Below, piece after piece: positions 36,104-55,596 of a DNA stretch of 57,925 nt (the first letter of the stretch is position 1; every line of letters starts with the position of its first letter). Both the position numbers and the translations under genes were made by a program. Source of the stretch: Bdellovibrionota bacterium (GTDB lineage Bacteria > Bdellovibrionota > Bdellovibrionia > Bdellovibrionales > JAMPXM01); assembly GCA_963170185.1 (NCBI GenBank), contig CAUJGS010000048.1:1-57925 (forward strand), in the 5' to 3' direction. The notes beneath the pieces were generated by a model that had not been told where the DNA came from, ran no database searches, and saw only the letters and a list, made by a program, of their open reading frames with translations.

Positions 36104-37168
36104 ATGAACATAAAAGGGCGTATAGCGCCGGGGAATCTCGGAGACCGAACCTTCGGTTTCATCCTTCGCTTTTTTTCGTGGGCCACGATCGCGCTGTTTT
36201 TAGGAATGCTCGTATTTCTCGCGCAGCTTTCCTGGGAAGCTATTCAAACCTATGGTCCGAAGTTCTGGGCGGGTACGGATTGGAATCCTCCGATGGAGGA
36301 ATTTGGCGCGGCCCCGTTTATCGTCGGCACATTGGCTTCAAGTTTGATCGCGGTTTTGATCGCGGCTCCCGTCTCCGTAGGGACGGCTGTTTTTTTAAGG
36401 GAGATAGCGCCTCGCCAACTCTCAAGCTTCGTGGCGTTTCTTGTCGAACTCCTGGCCGCTATTCCTTCGGTGGTTTACGGACTCTGGGGGGTGTTTGTTT
36501 TGGCTCCCGTTATGCGCGATCAGGTGCAGCCGTTCTTAGCTGAGTGGTTTGGTCCTGAGACCTACTTCGCCTCGGCTCTTGGGCATTTGGCGACGGCTTT
36601 CATTTATCCGTTTTCACTTATCGGAAACCTTTTTGGCGTCTGGCAGATTTCGCTCTCTGAGCTTTCCGTAAAAATGATGGCCATCGCGCACGGTCTGTTT
36701 GATGGCCCTCCACTGGGCTTAGGGCTTCTCACGTCAGGCGTGGTGCTGGCGATCATGATTATTCCAACGGTGACAGCGCTTTCCCGCGAAGTCTTGATGA
36801 CGGTTCCAGACAGCGTGCGTGAAGGTGCGTTGGGTTTGGGCGCGACACGCTGGGAAATGATTCGCATTGCACTTCTTAGAACAGCGCGGGCCGGGCTTGT
36901 TGGCTCGGTCATCTTGGGGCTTGGGCGCGCGATCGGAGAGACGATGGCGGTCACCATGGTGATCGGAAATCGCAACGTGATTCCGAATTCCTTGTTTGAG
37001 CCGGCCCAGACCATGGCGTCGGTGATCGCCAACGAGTATAACGAGTCCGATGGGCTTCATCTCTCGAGCCTCGCATTTGTCGGGCTTTCGCTTTTTCTTA
37101 TCGCGCTATTTGTGAACCTCTTTGCAAGACTCCTGGTGAGGTATCTGGAAAGAGGGCGCTATGCTTGA
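36104..37168 (+). CDS. pstC: Phosphate ABC transporter permease PstC
   Basis: 354 residues with about six membrane helices: IALFLGMLVFLAQLSWEA, then LASSLIAVLIAAPVSVGTAVFL, AIPSVVYGLWGVFVLAPV, and the C-terminal permease core with MIIPTVTALSREVL, PDSVREGALGLGATRWEMIR (EAA loop) and LGLGRAIGETMAVTMVIGN. These are PstC hallmarks; the IPTVTALSRE segment is specific for the phosphate family. It forms the channel with PstA. It starts an operon of six genes with overlaps or short gaps and lacks a visible ribosome site. Confidence 0.95.
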   Translation: MNIKGRIAPGNLGDRTFGFILRFFSWATIALFLGMLVFLAQLSWEAIQTYGPKFWAGTDWNPPMEEFGAAPFIVGTLASSLIAVLIAAPVSVGTAVFLREIAPRQLSSFVAFLVELLAAIPSVVYGLWGVFVLAPVMRDQVQPFLAEWFGPETYFASALGHLATAFIYPFSLIGNLFGVWQISLSELSVKMMAIAHGLFDGPPLGLGLLTSGVVLAIMIIPTVTALSREVLMTVPDSVREGALGLGATRWEMIRIALLRTARAGLVGSVILGLGRAIGETMAVTMVIGNRNVIPNSLFEPAQTMASVIANEYNESDGLHLSSLAFVGLSLFLIALFVNLFARLLVRYLERGRYA

Positions 37169-38003
37169 ACTCTCCGCTCGCGATCGTCGTCGCCGCGTGA
37201 CCAATGTGATCGCAATTGGCGCGCTCTGTGTTCTGGGTTTTTTGGCGATCACACCGTTATTCTTCATCTTCTCGTACCTGATCCTAAGGGGATGGGGTGG
37301 GCTTTCTTTGGACTTCTTCCTCGAGATTCCCAAGCCGGTAGGTGAAGAAGGTGGCGGTATGGCCAATGCCATATCGGGAAGTCTCGTGCTCTTGTCGTTG
37401 ACGGCGGCTTTTGGTGTTCCGATCGGCATGCTGTGCGGGATCGCGCTTTCGGAGTTGAAAAACAGTTTCACCGCAAGGGTTCTACGGGTCGCGGTGGATC
37501 TTTTGACAAGTGTCCCATCCATCGTGATCGGGCTTTTCGCTTATGCGGTGATCGTGGTGCCGATGAAAGGGTATTCGGCATGGGCGGGTGGATTTGCGCT
37601 TTCAATCGTGACGGTGCCGATCGTCGCGCGTTCAACCGAGGAAATTTTAAAACTCGTACCGAGAACTGTTCACGAAGCGGGGCTCGCGCTTGGGATTCCT
37701 CGCTACAAAGTTCTCTTGCGTTTGATTTTACCCGGAGTGCGCTCTGGGATTCTCACAGGGGTTTTGCTCGCGATGGCGCGTGTTTCGGGTGAAACGGCGC
37801 CGCTTCTCTTTACGGCGTTTTCGAACTCATTTGGCTTTCGTGGTCTTTCAAGCCCCACGGCCAGCCTTCCGGTTCAAATCTACACCTATGCGACTAGTCA
37901 TGACGAAACCTGGCGGCAGCTTGCATGGACGGGGGCGTTGGTTTTGGTCTTTGTGGTGTTCTGTTTGAACCTTTTGACGCGGTTTTTGGTACGAAAGAGT
38001 TAA
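37161..38003 (+). CDS. pstA: Phosphate ABC transporter permease PstA
   Basis: 280 residues, overlapping pstC by 8 bases. Membrane helices occur near 15-40 (IAIGALCVLGFLAITPLFFIFSYLIL) and throughout, with ISGSLVLLSLTAAFGVPIGML, TSVPSIVIGLFAYAVIVV, and the EAA loop VPRTVHEAGLALGIPRYKVLLRLILPGVR followed by RVSGETAPLLFTAFSN. The SIVIGLF and GETAPLLFTA segments are typical of PstA. Second channel half of the transporter. Confidence 0.95.
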   Translation: MLELSARDRRRRVTNVIAIGALCVLGFLAITPLFFIFSYLILRGWGGLSLDFFLEIPKPVGEEGGGMANAISGSLVLLSLTAAFGVPIGMLCGIALSELKNSFTARVLRVAVDLLTSVPSIVIGLFAYAVIVVPMKGYSAWAGGFALSIVTVPIVARSTEEILKLVPRTVHEAGLALGIPRYKVLLRLILPGVRSGILTGVLLAMARVSGETAPLLFTAFSNSFGFRGLSSPTASLPVQIYTYATSHDETWRQLAWTGALVLVFVVFCLNLLTRFLVRKS

Positions 38004-38012
38004 TGGTGAAAA

Positions 38013-38873
38013 ATGGCGCTTGATGTCAGCCCCGAATTCAATCAGAAAACCGGTATGGGAAATCTCGACGGGCAAAACCTAGAAGTCGAACAAAAGCAGA
38101 TCGCTTTGGAAACACAGAAGCTATCGGCTTGGTTTGGCGATCATCATGTCGTCAAAGAGATCTCGCTTTCTGTTGAAAAGAACGATGTGTTTGCGCTGAT
38201 CGGGCCTTCTGGTTGCGGAAAGTCGACGTTCATTCGCTGTCTGAATCGTCTGCACGAAGAGGGCGAAGGCGCGCGTGTCAGCGGTGACGTGCTCATTCAA
38301 GGAATCGGAAAGTCAGGTGGGCGCGAGAATATCTACCGAAGTGGGGTCGACCCTGTTTCGGTTCGTCGTCGTATCGGAATGGTCTTTCAGAAACCCAATC
38401 CTTTTCCTGGGCTCTCGATTTTTGAAAATGTCGCAAGCGGCTTGCGTTTGGCTCAGGTCGTGCGTCGAAGTGTCCTGGAGGAGGTCGTCGAGACCTCGCT
38501 CAAGCAGGCGGCATTGTGGGACGAGGTCAAAGACAAATTGAAAAAGCCAGGTACGTCGCTTTCCGGCGGCCAGCAGCAGCGACTTTGTATCGCTCGGGCA
38601 TTGGCCGTTCGTCCGCAGATTCTTCTGATGGATGAACCGACGTCGGCGCTTGATCCCATTTCCACAGCTCGCATCGAAGAGCTTGTGATGAAGCTTCGTG
38701 GCGAAGTGACGGTCATGATCGTGACTCACAACATGCAGCAGGCGGCGCGGATCTCCAGCCAAACGGCATTTTTCCTCATGGGAGAATTGGTCGAGGTCGG
38801 GCCGACCAACCGTATTTTCACAAAGCCGAAAGAATCCAAAACGGAACAGTATATAACCGGTCGCTTCGGTTGA
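38013..38873 (+). CDS. pstB: Phosphate ABC transporter ATPase PstB
   Basis: 286 residues. Walker [11 protein letters not shown] and the segment [14 protein letters not shown] are typical of PstB; the Q-loop is [17 protein letters not shown], signature [17 protein letters not shown] and Walker [13 protein letters not shown]. An N-terminal extension of about 30 residues ([20 protein letters not shown]) precedes the first strand. ATP hydrolysis drives phosphate uptake through PstC/PstA. It lies ten bases after pstA and 13 before phoU. Confidence 0.96.
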
Positions 38874-45655: not shown

Positions 45656-46507
45656 TCAACCGGGCCGCGGGAAGACCAGAAGCTTTGGTTTAAGGTGTTC
45701 AGGCACTCTCGCATCGATGATTTCGCGCAGGTCCTTGTTCGAATAGCGCGCAGAGACGTGAATCAGCACAATCCGCTCGGCCTCGATTTTGGGAAGCGCC
45801 TGCAAAAGCTCCTCGAAGTGGATGTGGCCCCACTCACGAGCGTTTTCTACCGACTTTTTCCCGTCCCAATAAGTGACTTCCATGACAAGCAGGCGAGATT
45901 TTCGAGCTTGTTCGCTATCCAAGAACTCGATTTTCGTGTCGCCGGTAAACGACACGAGGTTTTCTTCAACCTCTGCTTCAAGAACAACACCTTCGCGCCG
46001 AAGACGGGCAAGTTCTTGCGGGTTGGTCTTGGCAAGTTTCGTGAACTCGTCTTTGAGTTTCTTTCGCTTGCGAAAGACGGTGTAACCTTGAGACGCGATC
46101 CGATGATAGGTCGGAAATGTCCTGGCAAAGTATCCGGGCTTTAGCGGAATCTCTTCGCCGGGCTTTGCGACCTTGAATTCGTAAGCGTACTGAAACTCGT
46201 CGATCTCTTCCCAGAGCTTCATGATCTTTGTGAGTCTTTCAACGGCCGCCTCGGGCATATAGATGACCGGCTTTGGCTTTTGCTGCATCGATTTTTGCGA
46301 AATCAAATACGGCAATCCACTGGCATGATCCATGTGCGCATGTGTGAGCAGGATCGTGTTGAATGCGGTTTGAAAGGGAAGCCCCTGCGCCACATCAAAC
46401 AGCACATCGGCTTCTGGAAATGCGACCGAGGTCGACGTGCCGGCTATCGAGTAGCCGACAAGTCGCAGGTCATCGTGCAGAAGAGGGAAACCGGTTGCGA
46501 GACTCAA
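45656..46507 (-). CDS. RNase Z-like metallo-beta-lactamase fold hydrolase
   Basis: 283 residues from a TTG overlapping the previous stop (TTGA). Zinc motif HAHMDH has H56, H58, D60 and H61; further ligands are in TYHR, FTGDTK (Asp) and VLIHVSARYS. GHIHFEEL (the AxDxH-like RNase Z arm region) and SVAF/FDVA at the N-terminus fit the tRNase Z/ElaC subgroup rather than lactamases. The protein could process tRNA 3' ends, but it lacks the long exosite of canonical RNase Z and may act on another phosphodiester. A charged insertion (KKLKDEFTKLAKTNPQELARLRREG) is present near residues 130-160. It is translationally coupled to the upstream gene. Confidence 0.8.
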   Translation of the reverse strand: MSLATGFPLLHDDLRLVGYSIAGTSTSVAFPEADVLFDVAQGLPFQTAFNTILLTHAHMDHASGLPYLISQKSMQQKPKPVIYMPEAAVERLTKIMKLWEEIDEFQYAYEFKVAKPGEEIPLKPGYFARTFPTYHRIASQGYTVFRKRKKLKDEFTKLAKTNPQELARLRREGVVLEAEVEENLVSFTGDTKIEFLDSEQARKSRLLVMEVTYWDGKKSVENAREWGHIHFEELLQALPKIEAERIVLIHVSARYSNKDLREIIDARVPEHLKPKLLVFPRPG

Positions 46508-47898
46508 AGTGTTTTTCCGCTAGCCAGAGCCGCGGAAAGAACATCGTGACCGAGCCACCAAACCGGCTTTTCGCAAGTAAAGGAGTCGTGGAACATCACG
46601 TGTCCCGTTGCTCGAAAAACCTGTTCCGACAGCACGCTCGTCATAAGGTTTTTCTCATCGATGTGCTGCTTAAACAGTGTTTCGCTTGCGTTGAGCATCG
46701 TTTCCATCTGCGTTTGCGAATTGTTCTGCGGCCACTTTTTAAAGACCGAGTGGGTCTGAATCAAATCGCTTGTGATGTAGTTCTTGGTGAACTTCATGAT
46801 GGCTTTAAAGTCATGCTCCGGCTTTAAAAGCGAGCGACACTCATTTAGCACCGCATCGACACGCGCCTTACCTTCGACAGTCGCCGAGGACTTCGCGCGC
46901 TCAAGAGCCCCGAGCAGGGGATACAAGGAGACCTCGACCCCAAGAAAGATCGAAGAGGAGTTGGTGAGAATCTCCGGGCAGTTGTAAACACAGGCGCGCA
47001 CACCTTGCTTGGCAAAGTGAATCGCGTAGTTTTCAAGGCGCATCTTAGCCCAGCCTTGAAAGTAAGGCGTGTAGGTCTGCCACTGAAACTTTGCGTCGGC
47101 CTCGTCTCCGATCAGCACTTCTGTGCCGTGGTAGCCATAGGCGAGATATCTCGCGGTACCACCGGATTTTTCGATTTTCGCTCGTAAGTCAGAGGTCTCT
47201 TCGATCAGCGTGCGGTAGGTTTCGGATGTGACTTCGTCGAAGTTCAAAAGGGCAAAGCGACCCAGATCCGATTCAAAGAGTTGGCTTGACGGAACGTGCC
47301 GATCGCCAGTGCCTTTGAAGACGCGATTCATAACCGGCATGATGATTTTCGTCCGCGGGACACCGCCAGCCATGGTGTGACAGAAGATAACGTTTTTGCC
47401 ACTGGGGATGTGTTTCTCTAGTTCTTTAACATATGCTTTCACGGCGTTTCGGAAACGTGTGCGTCCGCGTGCGCGCGACTTTTCGATCGCGGCAAAGTCG
47501 GCCTTTGCATTTTGCCATTCGCCAAGCTTCACGCCTTCGAAAAATGAGTTTGGCGTCGGGCCACCATCTTCTGAAGGTTCCAAATCAAAGCCGGCTTCTA
47601 GCGGAATATTGATGAACGGTGTTTTTTGACCAGCCAGTTCTTCCGCGTTCAGAGCGCGAAGTGCACCGCTTTGATCGCGCCGGCCAACCGTGGATCGAAC
47701 AACAGTGAGGCCGTTTCGTTCCGCCTCGTCGACGATGCCGTTGGCGTAGCCGCGGGCGAAGAGTTCTCCGAATACCACAAGAACATCGCCGGGTTTGTAA
47801 CCAGCGGTGGCTGGAACCTTGCGCATTCCGGGAAGGCTTGCGAGGTCAAAAGAGGTTTCGTTGGAAACAAGAAAATCGGTTTTGGTTGTGTCTGCCAT
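46504..47898 (-). CDS. Probable enoyl-ACP reductase-like SDR, FabMG type
   Basis: 464 residues. The N-terminal GDVLVVFGELFARGYANGIVDEAERNGLTVV is a Rossmann-like nucleotide-binding fold, and AKMRLENYAIHFAKQGVRACVYNCPEILTN matches the SDR helix with the catalytic Lys and the following strand. A candidate catalytic Tyr lies in YTPYFQGWAK. The length is far above classical FabI (about 260), because of long insertions between the strands. I recall the name FabMG for a metagenome-derived, triclosan-tolerant enoyl-ACP reductase with homologues in this bacterial group, but cannot verify the match. Alternatively it is an SDR of unknown substrate. Start ATG 47898. Its stop overlaps the RNase Z-like gene. 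Confidence 0.5.
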   Translation of the reverse strand: MADTTKTDFLVSNETSFDLASLPGMRKVPATAGYKPGDVLVVFGELFARGYANGIVDEAERNGLTVVRSTVGRRDQSGALRALNAEELAGQKTPFINIPLEAGFDLEPSEDGGPTPNSFFEGVKLGEWQNAKADFAAIEKSRARGRTRFRNAVKAYVKELEKHIPSGKNVIFCHTMAGGVPRTKIIMPVMNRVFKGTGDRHVPSSQLFESDLGRFALLNFDEVTSETYRTLIEETSDLRAKIEKSGGTARYLAYGYHGTEVLIGDEADAKFQWQTYTPYFQGWAKMRLENYAIHFAKQGVRACVYNCPEILTNSSSIFLGVEVSLYPLLGALERAKSSATVEGKARVDAVLNECRSLLKPEHDFKAIMKFTKNYITSDLIQTHSVFKKWPQNNSQTQMETMLNASETLFKQHIDEKNLMTSVLSEQVFRATGHVMFHDSFTCEKPVWWLGHDVLSAALASGKTL

Positions 47899-48079
47899 AG
47901 CGGAAGACGCTCCCCCATGTGCGGAGCGTTAGGCAAGGGCATGTTGCAGGTGCCCAAAATCGTCGCTGATCTTCACCATTTGGGCCTTGTTGAACCCCAG
48001 TTTCTCATTGAAAGTGCCGGAGTTTCGGGGAGGTTCGTGGCATCACACTTGTACGGCACTAACCCCGCGAGGTAGTGGC

Positions 48080-49096
48080 ATGACAAATAAATCGCGAGAA
48101 AACGTGAAACTCAGTCTGGCTTTGGCCACTCTTGCTTCGATGTTGCAGCTGGCCTGCGCCAAAGGTGACGACCCACAAACCATTCAGACGGCTCCACCAA
48201 GTGCTCTGGCGACTCATCTTCGTTCATGCGCGGCTCGTGCTACTGCCGCTGGCCAGGTCGTGGTTCGCAAGGCCGTACCGGTCTGCCGTCGAAACCCGTC
48301 CGACGGGAGTTTGCAAGACGTGTCGTTTGAGCCTCGCTATCAAATGACGCATTCGTCTTCACGCCGAATCGAGCTTCAGCAAGTCATCGCTCTTCGCCTT
48401 GAGGACAAGTCGGAAAAGCCCACGGAAGCAAAGTCCCCGGAGCGTTCGCTTGTCGATCAACAGGTCTTAAAATTCGTAAGTGAGACATGCCAGCCGGTCA
48501 TCGACCAGATTTTTCGTCGCTCGGGCCTTCGCGCGGAACATCAGTTTCGCATGTTGTTAGAGGGTGATGCCTTCGCGCCGGCTGGTGTTATTGCGGCCGC
48601 AAAACCTGAAGAGCTTAAGCGAGTTCGCCTGAGCACGGATCGCGCCGAAAAAGAGCCCGCGAAAGCGGAACAAGCTAGCGGTCGCGGCTTTCACATGCTT
48701 CTTGACGTCGACTTCTCCTTGGAAAAAGGCCTCGTTTTAAAAGACGATCCGGCCTCCACTTACAGCGGTTCGCTCGTGGCGGAAGCGTCTCCCGAGTTAG
48801 AGGCGTCCAAGCTTCAGTTTTGCGGCCAAATCGCCATGCGTGTTGCGGAAAACTATGGGTTAACAAAAGGCCGCGATTGCCAGACACTTTCCGAGCAAAC
48901 CACGGACAAAGCCGACGTCAAAACCGCGGACAAAACCGACGCGAAAGTCGAAAAGAAGTCGACGGCTCATATCGGTCTCATGAAGCCAGGGCGTCTTGTC
49001 GAAGATCTTGGGAAGGTAAAACTAGCTTCCGATGAAATCGATGAAGTATTCTTCCCGGTATGCGGGAAGATGACCAAAACCGTCCACCAACGCTAA
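48080..49096 (+). CDS. Lipoprotein of unknown function
   Basis: 338 residues from ATG 48080, with a GAGGT site; the open frame extends to 47987. The lipobox is LQLAC with Cys26. The mature protein has mainly helical, charged sequence with Cys at LRSCAARAT, VPVCRRNPS, SETCQPVI, LQFCGQIAM, RDCQTLS and FPVCGK, six in all, likely to form three disulfides in the periplasm. A repetitive segment (TDKADVKTADKTDAKVEKK) sits before the C-terminus. No domain recognised. Its end overlaps the next gene by 37 bases in another frame. Confidence 0.7.
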   Translation: MTNKSRENVKLSLALATLASMLQLACAKGDDPQTIQTAPPSALATHLRSCAARATAAGQVVVRKAVPVCRRNPSDGSLQDVSFEPRYQMTHSSSRRIELQQVIALRLEDKSEKPTEAKSPERSLVDQQVLKFVSETCQPVIDQIFRRSGLRAEHQFRMLLEGDAFAPAGVIAAAKPEELKRVRLSTDRAEKEPAKAEQASGRGFHMLLDVDFSLEKGLVLKDDPASTYSGSLVAEASPELEASKLQFCGQIAMRVAENYGLTKGRDCQTLSEQTTDKADVKTADKTDAKVEKKSTAHIGLMKPGRLVEDLGKVKLASDEIDEVFFPVCGKMTKTVHQR

Positions 49097-50061
49097 TTGC
49101 GGGTCGCGACTTTAGCGAACGCCCAGATGGGCGTTTGATATTTTCGCGTGAGTATCTCTTGGCGCGTGGCACATGCTGTGGTTCGAAGTGCCGAAACTGC
49201 CCATATGAAAACCGCGTGGCTCCTCCTCGGGAACCGACGTCGAAAACGCCGCTGATTTTGTCCTTTGTTCCCAGTTGGACCGAGACGCTCTTGGGAATGG
49301 GGACAGATCTCGGCGTCGATGTCGTCGCTCGAACCCGGTTTTGTATTCACCCAAAAGATCTCGTAAAAACCATCCGTCCCCTAGGGGGAACCAAAAACTT
49401 CTCTCCGCAATTGGAGGATGAAATTCGCGCGCTTCGCGAGCTGTCTCCCGAACGACCTGTGGTCGCGATTTTGGATCGCGAAGAAAACCCGCGCTCATTT
49501 TACGACGAGCTTCTCGGCCTAGGTGTTGCTCCGGTTGTCACGCACGTCGAGACCCTAGAAGGTCTTCCGCAAGAGATCTCGCGGCTTTCGCAAGCCTTGG
49601 CGGTCGACGAGATGCTAGAGCTCAAGGTGCGCTATGAGCGAGTGCTTGAACAGCGTGCAAAGGTTCGCCCTGAGAGAGCGCTTCGAAGAATGATTTTGAA
49701 AGCTTCAAATGGCGTCGATGTTTCCGCGATTCTTACCACCCGGAAGCTAGCGTACGTGATTTGGAAAAAGCCTTGGATGTGTGTTTCGCATCAAACGCTG
49801 ATCGCGCAGGTTTTGGAGTTTGTTTTAAATCGCCCAGTGGGAAGCGCCGAGGAGTTTCTCTTTGCTCCAAAGGGGACTCGCTATCCGGAGTTTGAAAGCC
49901 TTCCCGAGGGCGTTCTCCCGCTTTATTCGTCGGAACCCTATCCCTTTTTAAGGGAGATTCACGAACTCCCTAAAGGCCTCTTTGTCGATGGTGAGCTTTA
50001 TAGCTGGTTTGGGATCCGTTTGCTTCGGTTCCTGGAAGACGTCTTAGAAGCCTCCAAGTGA
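49060..50061 (+). CDS. Fusion of a DUF5522-like Cys cluster and a TroA/BtuF-type receptor domain
   Basis: 333 residues without signal peptide. Residues 20-52 hold a Cys cluster C39-C40-x3-C44-x2-C47 in LLARGTCCGSKCRNCPYEN, as in DUF5522 (small proteins with an RGxCCGxxCxxCPY pattern). From about 65 to 330 the sequence resembles helical-backbone metal receptors (BtuF/TroA fold): ILSFVPSWTETLLGMGTDLGVDVVARTRFCIHP, then IRPLGGTKNFS, and the long helix ISRLSQALAVDEMLEL. Such receptors normally work in the periplasm for ABC importers; here no export signal is visible, so a cytosolic metal/cofactor-binding role is likely. Because of the fusion, function cannot be given. It overlaps the lipoprotein gene. 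Confidence 0.75.
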   Translation: MREDDQNRPPTLIAGRDFSERPDGRLIFSREYLLARGTCCGSKCRNCPYENRVAPPREPTSKTPLILSFVPSWTETLLGMGTDLGVDVVARTRFCIHPKDLVKTIRPLGGTKNFSPQLEDEIRALRELSPERPVVAILDREENPRSFYDELLGLGVAPVVTHVETLEGLPQEISRLSQALAVDEMLELKVRYERVLEQRAKVRPERALRRMILKASNGVDVSAILTTRKLAYVIWKKPWMCVSHQTLIAQVLEFVLNRPVGSAEEFLFAPKGTRYPEFESLPEGVLPLYSSEPYPFLREIHELPKGLFVDGELYSWFGIRLLRFLEDVLEASK

Positions 50062-50240: not shown

Positions 50241-51527
50241 GTGGGCATGGCTCCAGGCAATCGGTCTCTCTCTTATATTGGTTCCCGGTTAGGGTCGATC
50301 TGGCTTTCGAGCCAGGGACTCTTGGGGGCTATGCTTCGTTCGACCGTGGTCGCAGGCCTCGTTTTAATTTCTTCGAATTCGGCATACGCACAAAAAACCG
50401 ACGCGCAAAACTCCGACGAACCAGAAGTGGGCGGAGCTCAAGCGGCACTTTCAACCAAGACAGAATCATGGCGCCGCTCTCCGGAGACGAAGTTCGCCTA
50501 TAAAATCGGCTCGGACTTTGATTCTTTCGCCAATGAGCGCGAGCAGTCGCAGTTTTTCGGTATGTCGCTCATGGGTGATTTCCGAGCGCAACTGCTTTCC
50601 AATCTCACGTTCCGCACGAAAGCAGGCGTGAGTCTCTCTTCGGGATACGCGCAATCTCGGTTTGGCGACAATGTCGGAGCTTCCAGCGTTTGGTTGGAAG
50701 AGGCGTACTTAAACCTTCGCGCATTGAACTCGCGTTTGGCGCGTTTTTACTTCACCGCCGGTGCTCTCGACCAGGGTGATCTCAATATGAAAATCCTAGT
50801 GAATGGGCAGCCGTTCCCAGGTGTTCGCCAAACTCTTGTGCTCGGTCAGGATGCCGACACGAAACTCAAGATCTGGGCGCAGCAGACGATTCCGACGTCG
50901 AAGACGCTTTCCACAAAGACAGTGGATGCCGAAGTGATGCCGACCTTCATGTCGGAAACCATCGAGTTAAGCTTGCGCCCGGCGCGAAGCCTGAAACTCA
51001 CAGGACAGGCGACTCACTACGCGTTCAACAATCTTCCGTCGGCGGTCGCTCTTCAGAGTCAGATCTACGGTAACACGACGACCGAAACCGGTCCGAACAC
51101 GGCTCGATTCCAATATGGATTCGAAGGTTTCGGTCTGGGTGGTTCGGCTCGTTACGACTTCATGCCGTCGTTTGGCGTGCAGGTCGGCGGTTATATGTTG
51201 CAAAACACGCAAGCTCCAGAAGGCTATCGCAACAGCCAATACGTCAATGGTGGTCTGATCATCGGACTTGAGAACGAAATCGAGCTCAACGCCGGTGGTG
51301 CGGTTTTCTTCGTGGAAGATGACGTGACGCCTGGCTTTTATAACGATTCGAAAACCGGGCATAACAATCGTCAGGGTTATTCGGCTCAGGTGGACGTCGA
51401 TTTCAAGCGTCAGCGATTTAAGCTGCGCGCGGCGTTCACGGATGCCGACGTCTTAAATTTCAATATCAACCAAACGCGTCAGCAGGCCTTCTCTATCGGA
51501 TTCGAGACGTTCTATGAGCTATTCTAA
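50241..51527 (+). CDS. Predicted outer-membrane beta-barrel protein
   Basis: 428 residues from GTG 50241; ATG 50247 and ATG 50331 are alternatives. With the last start a compact signal peptide (MLRSTVVAGLVLISSNSAYA) is seen, whereas the longer start gives an unusual 50-residue leader. The mature part alternates hydrophobic and polar residues, with glycine turns and terminal aromatic residues (SIGFETFYELF), a typical barrel end with C-terminal Phe. It contains FRTKAGVSLSSGYAQSRFG and QVDVDFKRQRFKLRAAF strands. About 16 strands would fit. Family unknown. The stop overlaps the start of the giant lipoprotein gene by 14 bases. Confidence 0.75.
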   Translation: MGMAPGNRSLSYIGSRLGSIWLSSQGLLGAMLRSTVVAGLVLISSNSAYAQKTDAQNSDEPEVGGAQAALSTKTESWRRSPETKFAYKIGSDFDSFANEREQSQFFGMSLMGDFRAQLLSNLTFRTKAGVSLSSGYAQSRFGDNVGASSVWLEEAYLNLRALNSRLARFYFTAGALDQGDLNMKILVNGQPFPGVRQTLVLGQDADTKLKIWAQQTIPTSKTLSTKTVDAEVMPTFMSETIELSLRPARSLKLTGQATHYAFNNLPSAVALQSQIYGNTTTETGPNTARFQYGFEGFGLGGSARYDFMPSFGVQVGGYMLQNTQAPEGYRNSQYVNGGLIIGLENEIELNAGGAVFFVEDDVTPGFYNDSKTGHNNRQGYSAQVDVDFKRQRFKLRAAFTDADVLNFNINQTRQQAFSIGFETFYELF

Positions 51528-54500
51528 TACTGCTTTCATATCCTCGAAGTTGGGCTCCTTGGTGCTAGCTGTAGCGCTGTTAACCACGGCTTGTGTGAAG
51601 CCGGGGCCACGCTCGGCAGATCCCAATGCGAACTTCTCGGATCCGACAAAACCCGACGCCAATCAGTCGGCGGCGACGTTTTACAACGAAGAAGTCACCG
51701 GCAACGCCATTGTGACTCAGAACTTAAAAGGCTTTTCGATTCCGACAGAAAAACTCTTCTCGTTTAAGACGTGTGTTTTTGACAAGCGCCTTCGCGAGAC
51801 GATCAAGGGTCATCTTTTTGTCGTTAAGGGCGGAGAAAAAGACATCGAAGTTCGCAGCGAAGAGTCGGGCTGTTTAAACTGGTCCGAACCAATTGCTTTC
51901 AACGGAACTCAAAACGCGAAATATATTCCGCTGAAGCGAACTATCGTTGCCAAGGGCATGCACACAGGTGCACGCGATCTTTCTATCTGTATCAATCCAT
52001 GGAACTTCGACGGCTCCGAGGCGGTTCGCGACTGCGCTCGTCGTCCGGTTCCGTCGGAGATGTTGGTTGCGACATCGGCGGCGACTTCGTACCTAAAAGG
52101 CGAGGAGAAATCCGGCGAGACGCTTAAGCGTTACCTCTGGGTGGATGATCTTCGCATGAACTCCATCCATAATCCGGGTGGTGCGGACGGAAGTCTTATC
52201 GACTTCAGTATCTCGGTCGGTCCAAAGGTTCTTACCCGCAACATCCGTGGCGACGAAGAGGCGATGCCATTAAAAGACGGCGTCTTCAGTGTTCAGCTTT
52301 GGATCGTTGCAAAGACTGGGATTCAAAACAGTCGCTGTATGGTCATCGCCAAGTCCGATCCATCTATGGAGCTTGCGATGGTGGGCGGCCGTTTGCGCGA
52401 AGAACTCAAGATGAAGGTTCGATACCTCATCTCTTACGGTCAGCTTGAGCTGGTCGGCGCTATTCGTCCCAAGAACGGACCTGAGTCCATTCTCCCGTAT
52501 GACGGCGTATGGACGCTTGGCGATCACACGGGGCTTCTCGGTATGAAGTTCGGTTTCGAACGTCCGCCGGCTTACAAAAATGCTCCGGGTGAATTCAGTG
52601 CGACGAAGTACGTCGAAAACTGTATCGATGTATCTGATGGCGTTCACGAAAACGACGCGGTCAATCTCATCGGCGCGCAGGCGGCGGCGAAACGCCCTGT
52701 TCCTGCAGCCGTAGCTCTTGGTACGCCCGAGACTGTCTTCGCAGGTGGCGGGCTCAAGGTTTCGCAAGTCGGTGGCGGCAAGGTGGAAATCGAGGCGCCG
52801 CGTTCGCTTCTAAAAGCCGAACAAACTGCGCCGGCAAAGAAGATTCATGTCGACCAAGACTTGATGCGAGACGAGTGTCCGGATGCACGTGATCTTCCGC
52901 GCCTCTTCCCGCAAGATCACGCGAAGCAAGCGATCGTTCCTGGTCCAGATATTTTGACGTGTGTGAACAAAAATCTTCCCGGTGGCGTCTATAAGGTTGA
53001 ACAGTTTGAGTTCAGTCCGGTGGATGTTCGTCCGGAACCGATCATGGACCCGGTCGATAGCGAAACCACGATCGATCGTAAAATGAAGTATCGCGTGATC
53101 ACACGTGTGACGAATCCACTTGCGCAAAACTCGCCGGTTCGTGACATGGAATTCACTGTTGAAACTCAAGACGGCGCCGCGAGACAGGTTCGAACAAACC
53201 ATCTGGGTGAACTGATTTTCAACGACACGATCTATCACGTGTACTATCAGCCCGAACGTTTTTATCTGAAGCTTATCAAGATCTCGCATCCGTCGGGTTT
53301 CTCGAAACGTTTGGCTGTCGTGCTTGTTCCTTGGGACAACAACGGTTTCCAGTTCGCTCGTGATATCCGAGGTCTTTCTAAACAAACCATCGCACAGATG
53401 AATCTGGTTCCGCGTCCGGCTTCTCAGATGATCCTCACGGATTTCAACTGGGGAACCATTGGATTCCGCTATCAGGTCGATAACTATCTCTCGCTCAAGG
53501 TGTACAAGCAGTACATGCTTCGCCTCGATCCTCGTGCCATTCGTTACAGCAGTTTCACGCATGGTCGAATGATGAACGAACCTCTTCGTGACGGTCTGTA
53601 CCTCATGAAAGTTGCGATCCAAAAGGACTATCAGCCCTTGGGTGGAGAGCCTAAAGAGTTTATCAACGGCATTCGAACTCTGGTCGCGGTGCGTGCGGGT
53701 CGTATCAACGTTCCGGTTGAAATCATGTTCCGTGACTTTAGAGTTCTCAAGCTTCGTTCGAATCTTCTCATCGAGCTTGCGACGGTCGACGAGCGTAAAC
53801 TCCCACGGGAAATTCGCGAGGCGGCATTCAATTTGCGCAACTCGGCTGCGAACAAGGATGCAAAGCCTGAAGCGATTCAGCAGTTGGAAGAGGATTTCTA
53901 CAACATCGCTCAGAGCAAAACCAAAGTGAAAATGGATCCGCTTGATACCTATATCGCCGAAGGTTCCGGTATGGCGGCTCGTACGTTTGTCGGTGCAGTC
54001 GTTCCATACTCAAATGGTTTCTCGGCTCAGGTGCGTGCAACAGACGAACTTCTTGAAGTCAGCTGCCCAACGGGTAACACGGTTGATTGTGACGAACTCA
54101 AGTCCAATGATGTGATCCCACCGTCTGAGCGCAGTGAGCGCGCGAAACTCTTTGGCGATCTCAAACATCTTTATCGCATGTCGGTCACTCGTCTTCTTGA
54201 GCGTATGCAGACGCTTGAGCGCCGCTATGTCACAGAGATGTCGGATATGACCAAGATGTCCAAGCTCCTTAAGATGGGGAACCTAGAGTACCTTTCGTTT
54301 AGCAACGAAACGGCCTTCTTGCAGCAGTCCTTAAAAGCTGACCCGGAGCTTGCGAAGAACAACCAGGTTCTTCCAATGGGGACGAGCTTCCAGAAGTTCG
54401 CAAACCAGTACGTGAAGTTCCAGCCGGCTGAGAAGTTTGATCAGATGATGTACATCCAGTCATATAACCAAATGAAGTATCCCAACAAAGGATACGGCAT

Positions 54501-55596
54501 GATGGCTTTTGACCGTAAGCCACCCGAGAAGGTGACGCCTCAGCAGGATCTCGAAAATCTCAAGACGGCATTGTTTGACGTCGGTTTCGTGAACTCCGAA
54601 CAGGCGACAAGACTCTGTGTTTTCCTCATGGAGAACCTGGTTTTACGGCAAGATCCGGATGCGGAGAAGTCGTTGGCCCGTGTGCAGCGAAATCTCTCTC
54701 GTATGCAGCGTACAGAAATCAATCGTCATTGTTTGGTGGCTGGTCAGCTTCAGATTGAGCGCAAGCTGCGTGTCTTTAACTTGCAAGATGCCGAGCGCGG
54801 AGGCGGTAACTTGATGGGGCTTAACGTTGGCGCCAATACTTCATTTGGTCGCAGCGAAGGCTGGTCGTTTGGCTATAGCTTAAGTCCGCTGAAGCCTTTG
54901 ACAGGTGCTTTGGATGCCGCTTCGACGATCGTAAAAGGCCCAATCGGCCTCGTGGCAGGAGGAGTTTCCAAATTCATCGACGGATCTGGCCTCGGCATCA
55001 ATATGTCGACTTCGAAATCCGGTGATGTTTCGGAAGGCGCTTCGGTTTCAAGCGGTGCGAACGTGGCGGTCGAACTTCGTCGTATGGATCTCACGATGGG
55101 TGGTTACGAACGCTGTGCCATCGTTCGCTTAAGTCCTGAGACGGCGATCTCGGTATCCAAACAGCTCGGTCATTACCTAAAAGGTAAGGGCGTACAAAAC
55201 GCTGTCGGCCATACGTCGCGTGGCCTCATGGTCTGCGAAGGCTTTGAACGGAAAGAGCCGTTCAAAATCGAAGAGCGTTACTATCAGTTCTCACAGAGTT
55301 TGGGTGAAGAAGTGTTGAACGACCCGACGGCACTCGAGAACCAGCCGTATATCTTCGGTCTTCGTGGACGCTCCGACTATGTTCGCTTTGTTCGCACGGT
55401 TGAAGCGCGTCCGAAGTCGATCTTCAATCTTCCAGGGCATATTTCGATCGGGGAACTTCCCAACGATCGTCTGATGGGAGTCTTTGGTGAAGCGACTCCG
55501 ACATACCCGGGATTGATTAGTCTTGAACCGCAGATGGCGTCTCGCTTAAAGCCCGTGAAGAGCACACGCGAGCTTGAGCAAACCGGCCAGAGGTAG
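51514..55596 (+). CDS. Very large lipoprotein of unknown function
   Basis: 1360 residues. The N-terminus is a lipoprotein signal with lipobox TTAC (Cys27), so the protein is anchored in the outer or inner membrane and probably exposed. There are no membrane helices and no recognised enzyme motif. The first half is beta-rich with FSIPTEKLFSFKTCVFDKRLRE-type segments, repeated features like KGHLF and RDLSICINPW and disulfide-capable Cys pairs (RDCARRP; EVSCPTGNTVDCDEL; YERCAIV). The middle is helical and charged (MSVTRLLERMQTLERRYV). Near residues 1090-1180 a Gly/Ser-rich part (LVAGGVSKFIDGSGLGINMSTSKSG) appears. Frame overlap with the barrel gene implies co-translation. Maybe a surface fibre or assembly scaffold; I do not recognise it. 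Confidence 0.75.
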   Translation: MSYSNTAFISSKLGSLVLAVALLTTACVKPGPRSADPNANFSDPTKPDANQSAATFYNEEVTGNAIVTQNLKGFSIPTEKLFSFKTCVFDKRLRETIKGHLFVVKGGEKDIEVRSEESGCLNWSEPIAFNGTQNAKYIPLKRTIVAKGMHTGARDLSICINPWNFDGSEAVRDCARRPVPSEMLVATSAATSYLKGEEKSGETLKRYLWVDDLRMNSIHNPGGADGSLIDFSISVGPKVLTRNIRGDEEAMPLKDGVFSVQLWIVAKTGIQNSRCMVIAKSDPSMELAMVGGRLREELKMKVRYLISYGQLELVGAIRPKNGPESILPYDGVWTLGDHTGLLGMKFGFERPPAYKNAPGEFSATKYVENCIDVSDGVHENDAVNLIGAQAAAKRPVPAAVALGTPETVFAGGGLKVSQVGGGKVEIEAPRSLLKAEQTAPAKKIHVDQDLMRDECPDARDLPRLFPQDHAKQAIVPGPDILTCVNKNLPGGVYKVEQFEFSPVDVRPEPIMDPVDSETTIDRKMKYRVITRVTNPLAQNSPVRDMEFTVETQDGAARQVRTNHLGELIFNDTIYHVYYQPERFYLKLIKISHPSGFSKRLAVVLVPWDNNGFQFARDIRGLSKQTIAQMNLVPRPASQMILTDFNWGTIGFRYQVDNYLSLKVYKQYMLRLDPRAIRYSSFTHGRMMNEPLRDGLYLMKVAIQKDYQPLGGEPKEFINGIRTLVAVRAGRINVPVEIMFRDFRVLKLRSNLLIELATVDERKLPREIREAAFNLRNSAANKDAKPEAIQQLEEDFYNIAQSKTKVKMDPLDTYIAEGSGMAARTFVGAVVPYSNGFSAQVRATDELLEVSCPTGNTVDCDELKSNDVIPPSERSERAKLFGDLKHLYRMSVTRLLERMQTLERRYVTEMSDMTKMSKLLKMGNLEYLSFSNETAFLQQSLKADPELAKNNQVLPMGTSFQKFANQYVKFQPAEKFDQMMYIQSYNQMKYPNKGYGMMAFDRKPPEKVTPQQDLENLKTALFDVGFVNSEQATRLCVFLMENLVLRQDPDAEKSLARVQRNLSRMQRTEINRHCLVAGQLQIERKLRVFNLQDAERGGGNLMGLNVGANTSFGRSEGWSFGYSLSPLKPLTGALDAASTIVKGPIGLVAGGVSKFIDGSGLGINMSTSKSGDVSEGASVSSGANVAVELRRMDLTMGGYERCAIVRLSPETAISVSKQLGHYLKGKGVQNAVGHTSRGLMVCEGFERKEPFKIEERYYQFSQSLGEEVLNDPTALENQPYIFGLRGRSDYVRFVRTVEARPKSIFNLPGHISIGELPNDRLMGVFGEATPTYPGLISLEPQMASRLKPVKSTRELEQTGQR

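Follow-up and report, generated by a model that had tools for sequence, protein, structure and literature searches.

The window analysed here is a stretch of 57,925 nucleotides from a Bdellovibrionota bacterium (contig CAUJGS010000048.1). On its forward strand, from the ATG at 49060 to the stop codon at 50061, it contains a single open frame of 333 amino acids. The N-terminal part of the product matches DUF5522 (PF17653), and the larger remainder matches the NCBIfam model NF038402 TroA_like, 'helical backbone metal receptor' (56.7 bits, curated cut-off 30, E 2.4e-15). A search of the whole genome finds each of these domains once. The features are as follows.

49060..50061, forward strand: whole gene, DUF5522 plus cytosolic TroA/BtuF-type receptor (open frame and profiles; stop codon included)
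49090..49212, forward strand: DUF5522 domain, residues 11-51 (PF17653, 45.1 bits against a cut-off of 25, E 1e-11)
49174..49200, forward strand: C39-C40-x3-C44-x2-C47 cluster (read from the sequence)
49255..49950, forward strand: TroA_like receptor domain, residues 66-297 (NF038402; the structure match extends over about 59-331)
49330..49353, forward strand: R91-T-R-F-C95-I-H97-P98 motif (conservation; alignment to BtuF)
49384..49395, forward strand: G109-G-T-K112 motif (conservation; alignment to BtuF)

The initial annotation had placed a DUF5522-like cysteine cluster ahead of a receptor domain, and the two profiles (E 1e-11 and 2.4e-15) bear this out. The DUF5522 match is full and includes CC-x3-C-x2-C; it differs from the family at large in forming the N-terminus of a receptor rather than a gene of its own. 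The receptor clears the curated cut-off of TroA_like, a model that, however, carries neither a ligand or function nor a DUF5522 fusion. A PF01497-type profile had been suggested as a check: Pfam PF01497 (Peripla_BP_2) leaves the window protein unmatched up to E 10, and it is NF038402 that matches instead. PF01497 does match a Bacteroidota relative of the receptor (E 2e-18), which scores 161.6 bits with NF038402. The BtuF equivalog model NF002894 leaves the window protein unmatched up to E 10 and gives the Bacteroidota relative 67.8 bits, below its cut-off of 234 bits. The absence of a signal peptide, also claimed earlier, agrees with our scan for an export signal or lipobox, which found no hydrophobic N-terminus (top 15-residue hydropathy mean of 0.65 in the first 60 residues).

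The first 37 nucleotides of the gene are shared with the frame that precedes it (47987-49096), and a promoter and terminator scan around the gene gave no signal above shuffled sequences. The upstream genes on the other strand encode a FabMG enoyl-ACP reductase and a protein of the metallo-beta-lactamase fold; the flanking forward-strand frames gave no match in a Pfam scan. The FabMG gene (46507-47898, reverse strand) is a conserved neighbour of the receptor gene in loci of the Bdellovibrionota type, with homologues in 26 loci, and the two frames at 50241-51524 and 51514-55593 (both forward, both without Pfam match) have homologues near the receptor in 15 loci each. The earlier statement that no ABC transporter lies nearby holds for the immediate neighbours, among which there is no adjacent cognate permease or ATPase gene, but not for the whole window, since two permeases and an ATPase (phosphate type by eye) are encoded at 36104-38870, about 10 kb off.

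Predicted fold and conserved residues

The predicted model of the window protein (333 aa, alignment of 24 rows) has a pLDDT of 88.4 and a pTM of 0.88, with values of 83 to 91 for the DUF5522 blocks. Its best solved matches are a tie between the heme receptor BhuT (5giz, Z 15.6), 4m7o (Z 15.4) and BtuF, the periplasmic B12 binder of BtuCD (1n2z, Z 15.2); the BhuT and BtuF matches cover 230 to 238 residues (230 aligned for 1n2z, rmsd 3.6), and RhuT, ShuT-type and HmuT-type receptors follow below. The C-terminal half is thus predicted to fold as a receptor, and on the strength of this model and of its fold matches (Z 15.2-15.6 to BtuF and BhuT) that part of the initial annotation stands as far as prediction goes. 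For a close fused relative (275 aa, 19 rows, pLDDT 92.2, pTM 0.88), the best solved match is BtuF 1n2z (Z 20.4, 229 aligned, rmsd 3.1), followed by heme receptors (2r7a, Z 18.6). Judged from these models, structure alone cannot separate cobalamin from heme. At the sequence level, phmmer finds no match of the window protein among solved structures up to E 1, and the profile of the receptor family matches BtuF sequences in the PDB with an E of 2.4e-5.

As judged from an alignment of 120 receptor domains, the receptor belongs to a family of its own with strong conservation. Glu142, Asn143, Trp235, Glu292, Pro293, Phe296 and Trp316 are invariant, Cys95 is a cysteine in all 119 rows having a residue there, and Lys112 and His97 are conserved in 118 and 112 of the 120 rows, respectively. 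BtuF (1n2z, 5m29) shares with the family the P-x-x-T-E start and the P-D-L-V strand. It differs in that the window protein, at most 18% identical to it, has no export signal, no adjacent BtuC or BtuD and no W66; invariant Cys95 is in turn absent from BtuF. In the profile alignment, R-T-R-F-C-I-H-P falls on V-S-S-Y-S-D-Y-P of BtuF, and T111, directly followed by K112, aligns with W66, a residue named as mutated in the titles of cobinamide-bound PDB entries. From residue conservation and this alignment, the cleft side of the receptor is, as we read it, conserved like an active site and unlike BtuF at a known pocket position, and C95 and H97 are candidate ligands of cobalt (or iron). In DUF5522, CC-x2-3-C-x2-C is found in all 79 distinct matches from the fetched loci, the search profile itself containing the motif.

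Recurrence of the fusion

The window protein matches 35 of the 59 genomes of its relatives, the window's own among the 59 (in one of the 35, G057, the receptor match is weak, E 7.7e-5). Reading of the frames places the fusion in eight of the 59, the window's own included (G000, G002, G003, G004, G005, G012, G039 and G048), and the remaining relatives have DUF5522 and the receptor as tandem genes or apart. The phyletic distribution of the fusion, named earlier as a check, therefore comprises 8 of 59 relatives' genomes and further loci outside them. The concern that a mis-read frame had joined two genes is excluded, as homologues hold both domains in one frame and the predicted model of the single chain is confident for each part. 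Although the assembly that contains the window is a draft of 136 contigs, an assembly or frame artefact has next to no chance of being the explanation, being ruled out by the fusion in seven other, independent genomes of the relatives and in further loci.

A wider set of 117 receptor loci was assembled from 79 loci of a GTDB genome scan and 38 loci from Bacteroidota-phylum and gammaproteobacterial samples (40 minus two duplicates). The former derive from the best 80 of 165 confirmed stretches, so that this similarity-ranked set is biased towards the query. Across the 117 loci, DUF5522 is fused to the receptor in 10 and is its immediate same-strand neighbour in 22; in one it lies about 1 kb off on the opposite strand, and in 84 it is absent from the examined flank. 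The 32 loci with a fusion or an adjacent pair all belong to the similarity-ranked set, against none of the 38 sampled loci. Fusions reach MAGs that are gammaproteobacterial (L048) or unclassified (L035), and a tandem pair is also found in a Cloacimonadota MAG (L112). On a tree of the 120 receptor domains, the fused state requires six changes by parsimony, against a mean of 12.6 after shuffling; the well-supported branches, however, force just one change, so that a repeated rather than single origin of the fusion is likely and no more than that.

The pairing of the two domains in genomes differs between samples. Among the 59 relatives, 27 have both domains, 8 the receptor alone, none DUF5522 alone and 24 neither (Fisher 5e-10, uncorrected for phylogeny); here, it was the match of the window protein itself that revealed DUF5522 in 24 of the 27, and PF17653 was searched in the remaining pair genomes and in all genomes without a receptor match. 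The corresponding numbers for 148 Bacteroidota-phylum genomes are 27, 32, 13 and 76 (p 5e-5), counting as receptor-positive a best piece of at least 79 bits, with a gap down to weaker BtuF-like matches of at most 63 bits, and leaving out DUF5522 matches below the cut-off (G154, G178). For 274 genomes of the gammaproteobacterial class they are 1, 12, 7 and 254 (p 0.33; sub-cut-off match G351 left out), so that receptor and DUF5522 are unassociated in that sample.

Genomic partners of the receptor and of DUF5522

The fused mutase IcmF (homologues called by blastp, 1e-40) lies at most 1.5 kb from the receptor gene in 23 of the 117 loci, 20 of the 79 similarity-ranked and 3 of the 38 sampled ones, and within the examined flank in 26. 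By simple arithmetic (a genome of about 4 Mb, one gene), the chance of such proximity is about 0.2% per locus, loci within a lineage not being independent. In 14 gammaproteobacterial loci of the Arenicella type, IcmF, DUF5522 and the receptor follow one another on one strand, and in L083 and L092 IcmF directly adjoins the receptor. Three Eremiobacterota MAGs and a Myxococcales MAG have IcmF on the opposite strand, 60-110 bp from the receptor, while it is on the same strand at 60-452 bp in G334 and G456, at 795 bp in G487, and farther off in two Bacteroidota-phylum genomes (1.8 and 2.9 kb) and in G327 (4.2 kb). A Pfam scan of six of these neighbours (L041, L039, L067, L254, L259, L246) found mutase, MeaB and B12-binding domains in all six, the L067 frame being cut by a contig end. 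On the receptor tree, the IcmF-neighbour label changes six times by parsimony at a limit of 3 kb. In two further loci (L207 and L208, from G386 and G499), IcmF adjoins DUF5522 with no receptor between, and the receptor was undetected anywhere in these genomes; the gene order there is IcmF, DUF5522, then an RraA-like gene (by eye). None of the Bdellovibrionota loci examined has an IcmF neighbour, and the window genome has one IcmF and one separate mutase, neither beside the fusion gene.

The receptor also co-occurs with B12-dependent mutases (PF01642). In the sample of 274 gammaproteobacterial genomes, PF01642 is present in 57: 12 of the 13 genomes with a receptor have it, compared with 45 of the 261 without one (Fisher 2.6e-8, uncorrected for phylogeny). 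DUF5522 has no association with it in the same sample (3 of 8, p 0.37). Among the searchable carrier genomes outside the window's phylum, 31 of 38 have PF01642, and the seven without it all belong to the Oceanimonas/Oceanisphaera group (L090, L094, L103-L105, L107, L110). In most of these PF01642-less loci, a gene resembling glutamate-cysteine ligase (by eye) is directly upstream of the receptor. All 59 relatives of the window's order have PF01642, so that mutase co-occurrence is uninformative there, and for this order the link to B12 is, as we read it, one of homology.

A third link concerns the DUF71-B12 subgroup of PF01902, which is marked by ENGEF/YH and tied to B12 salvage; according to the paper describing it, 75 of its 102 genes adjoin B12 transporter genes (PMC3541065). 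At L127, in a Pseudomonadales MAG (G082) that also has a receptor beside IcmF, DUF5522 is fused to a DUF71 domain ending in ENGEFH (PF01902, 60.0 bits, cut-off 23.2). In five gammaproteobacterial loci (L209-L213, from G309, G500, G286, G427 and G244), DUF5522 stands behind a second Cys-rich, CWC-like stretch, a call that is 22.1 bits in L210 (below the cut-off of 24) and was made by eye in L209 and L211-L213; L205 has the same arrangement. A DUF71 gene with ENGEFH adjoins this Cys-rich-DUF5522 gene in L210, L212 and L213 (PF01902 run for L210 alone among the three, 86.7 bits), and a BtuF-like gene without visible export signal adjoins it in L209, L210 and L213 (PF01497, E 6e-45 or better), so that all three elements are together in L210 and L213. 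L211 has neither a DUF71 nor a BtuF-like gene within 1.5 kb. DUF71-B12 is thus a partner of DUF5522 by fusion (L127) and by adjacency (L210, L212, L213), the subgroup being recognised by the mark given in PMC3541065, and it is not found at the window locus. DUF71 is above the cut-off in 2 of the 59 relatives, and this link therefore does not reach the window's order.

Proposed role in corrinoid handling

Taking these observations together, we lean towards reading the window protein as a putative cytosolic corrinoid (vitamin B12) handling protein. Cytoplasmic B12 handling is probable because relatives in several groups sit beside a B12-dependent enzyme, and three genomic links favour cobalamin: the IcmF neighbourhoods, the mutase co-occurrence and the DUF71-B12 partners of DUF5522. 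Several observations count against this reading, namely the tie with BhuT, the replacement of W66 by T111, the seven carriers without PF01642, the absence of an IcmF neighbour in the examined Bdellovibrionota loci, DUF71 in just 2 of 59 relatives, and the null associations of DUF5522 in the gammaproteobacterial sample. The initial annotation had proposed a cytosolic handler of metal, heme or cobalamin; of this, the cytosolic location is retained and, among the three ligands, cobalamin has the best support, with the reservation that the fold does not split cobalamin from heme.

Corrinoid binding, the role of the cysteines and the hand-off to IcmF are what we infer from sequence and context, as follows. 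The C-terminal class-III (TroA/BtuF-fold) receptor, unexported and without a transporter of its own, would accommodate a corrinoid in its interlobe cleft. The N-terminal DUF5522, elsewhere the product of a separate partner gene, might bind Zn or an Fe-S cluster through its four cysteines and serve as a docking module; alternatively, these cysteines may be thiols acting near the bound corrinoid. The protein would thereby act as a holder of cobalamin, newly arrived or off-loaded, at the stage between uptake, the adenosyltransferase and the client enzymes, and IcmF would be the best candidate client. Two papers indicate that the G-protein part of IcmF-type mutases assists cofactor loading (PMC10481361, PMC9974510). 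As IcmF itself already aids loading, the missing actor would be a holder of cobalamin before loading or after off-loading. A precedent for thiol chemistry at cobalt is BtuM, in which a cysteine is the axial cobalt ligand and decyanation occurs (PMC6072759).

One alternative, which we regard as improbable, is a cytosolic carrier of heme (heme-iron) in which His97 or Cys95 would be an axial ligand and DUF5522 would act as a thiol or Zn module. In its favour, BhuT (Z 15.6) and BtuF (Z 15.2) score alike against the window model, with RhuT, ShuT-type and HmuT-type receptors next, and the His before Pro sits at the Tyr-Pro position of BtuF, where heme receptors use a Tyr. Yet the tally of neighbours shows nothing for heme that would match the vicinity of IcmF and DUF71-B12 genes or the co-occurrence with mutases. 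To a sensor or chaperone for metal ions or redox state, in which DUF5522 would bind Zn, Fe-S or another metal and the receptor a non-corrinoid metal or chelate, we likewise give a low probability. Such a function, which corresponds to the broader proposal of the initial annotation, would suit the four invariant cysteines, the CWC-like Cys-rich fusions and the weak resemblance of DUF5522 to Oxidored-like (E 0.004) and FeoB_associated (E 0.058), but it leaves the B12 neighbourhoods and the mutase co-occurrence unexplained. Finally, the protein could be an accessory of acyl-CoA or fatty-acid metabolism that does not bind B12, the IcmF link then reflecting the pathway and not the cofactor. The IcmF loci also carry acyl-CoA dehydrogenase-like and enoyl-CoA hydratase-like genes (by eye), and the conserved Bdellovibrionota neighbour FabMG (26 loci) is an enoyl-ACP reductase; this explanation is nevertheless improbable in view of the BtuF-like fold and of the DUF71-B12 partners of DUF5522, none of them a fatty-acid gene.

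Returning to corrinoid handling, CblC (MMACHC) is the cytosolic cobalamin-processing chaperone of animals, and its fold is not known to be related to that of the window protein. The likeness lies in the proposed job, the cytosolic holding and processing of cobalamin, which here is a proposal from genomic context. A bolder version, which we consider rather unlikely, is that bacteria possess a B12 trafficking unit not described so far, made up of DUF5522 and the cytosolic BtuF-fold family and corresponding in function to CblC. The receptor would capture the corrinoid with Cys95 and His97 near cobalt, the Cys domain would remove or exchange the upper ligand or dock the complex, and cobalamin would be passed to adenosyltransferase and IcmF, or taken back for repair.

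DUF5522 and TroA_like are already named families for which our search turned up no assigned function, and the fusion is new within a known fold class; it is the IcmF/DUF71 link that is worth testing. To our knowledge, the intracellular route of cobalamin from importer to enzymes is largely open in bacteria, and a widespread unexported receptor-fold protein beside IcmF in several lineages provides a concrete gene for this question. Our literature search found no paper naming DUF5522, PF17653 or IPR040807, and nothing relevant on a cytosolic BtuF-like protein; nor is the receptor family described in the passages of PMC2667541 that were examined. The B12 link is thus a first working hypothesis for DUF5522.

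A receptor context that is not explained by B12 is found in the Bacteroidota phylum (L235-L248, L269), where 9 of the 40 loci retrieved have a fructosamine-kinase-like gene, and 10 a low-molecular-weight tyrosine-phosphatase-like gene, immediately upstream of the receptor (both by eye).

Most DUF5522 members seen are separate genes of 50-80 aa. A second flavour, with a Y-x-D-P-x-T-G-Y start, occurs in L121-L123 and L127 and has a weak match to PF09791 Oxidored-like (E 0.004), hinting that the two Cys families may be related. If animal C1orf53 is, as we take it to be, a DUF5522 protein of this flavour, then under the bolder version above the Cys domain may act in mitochondrial B12 handling too. 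The passages on C1orf53 that were examined (PMC10298883) contain no mention of B12, and a search on OXLD1 yielded no function. In four Bacteroidota-phylum loci (L179, L181, L183, L192), DUF5522 may be fused to a surface protein, because one frame runs from it into a membrane segment and a secreted-protein-like region; L179 has a weak Por_Secre_tail match downstream of DUF5522.
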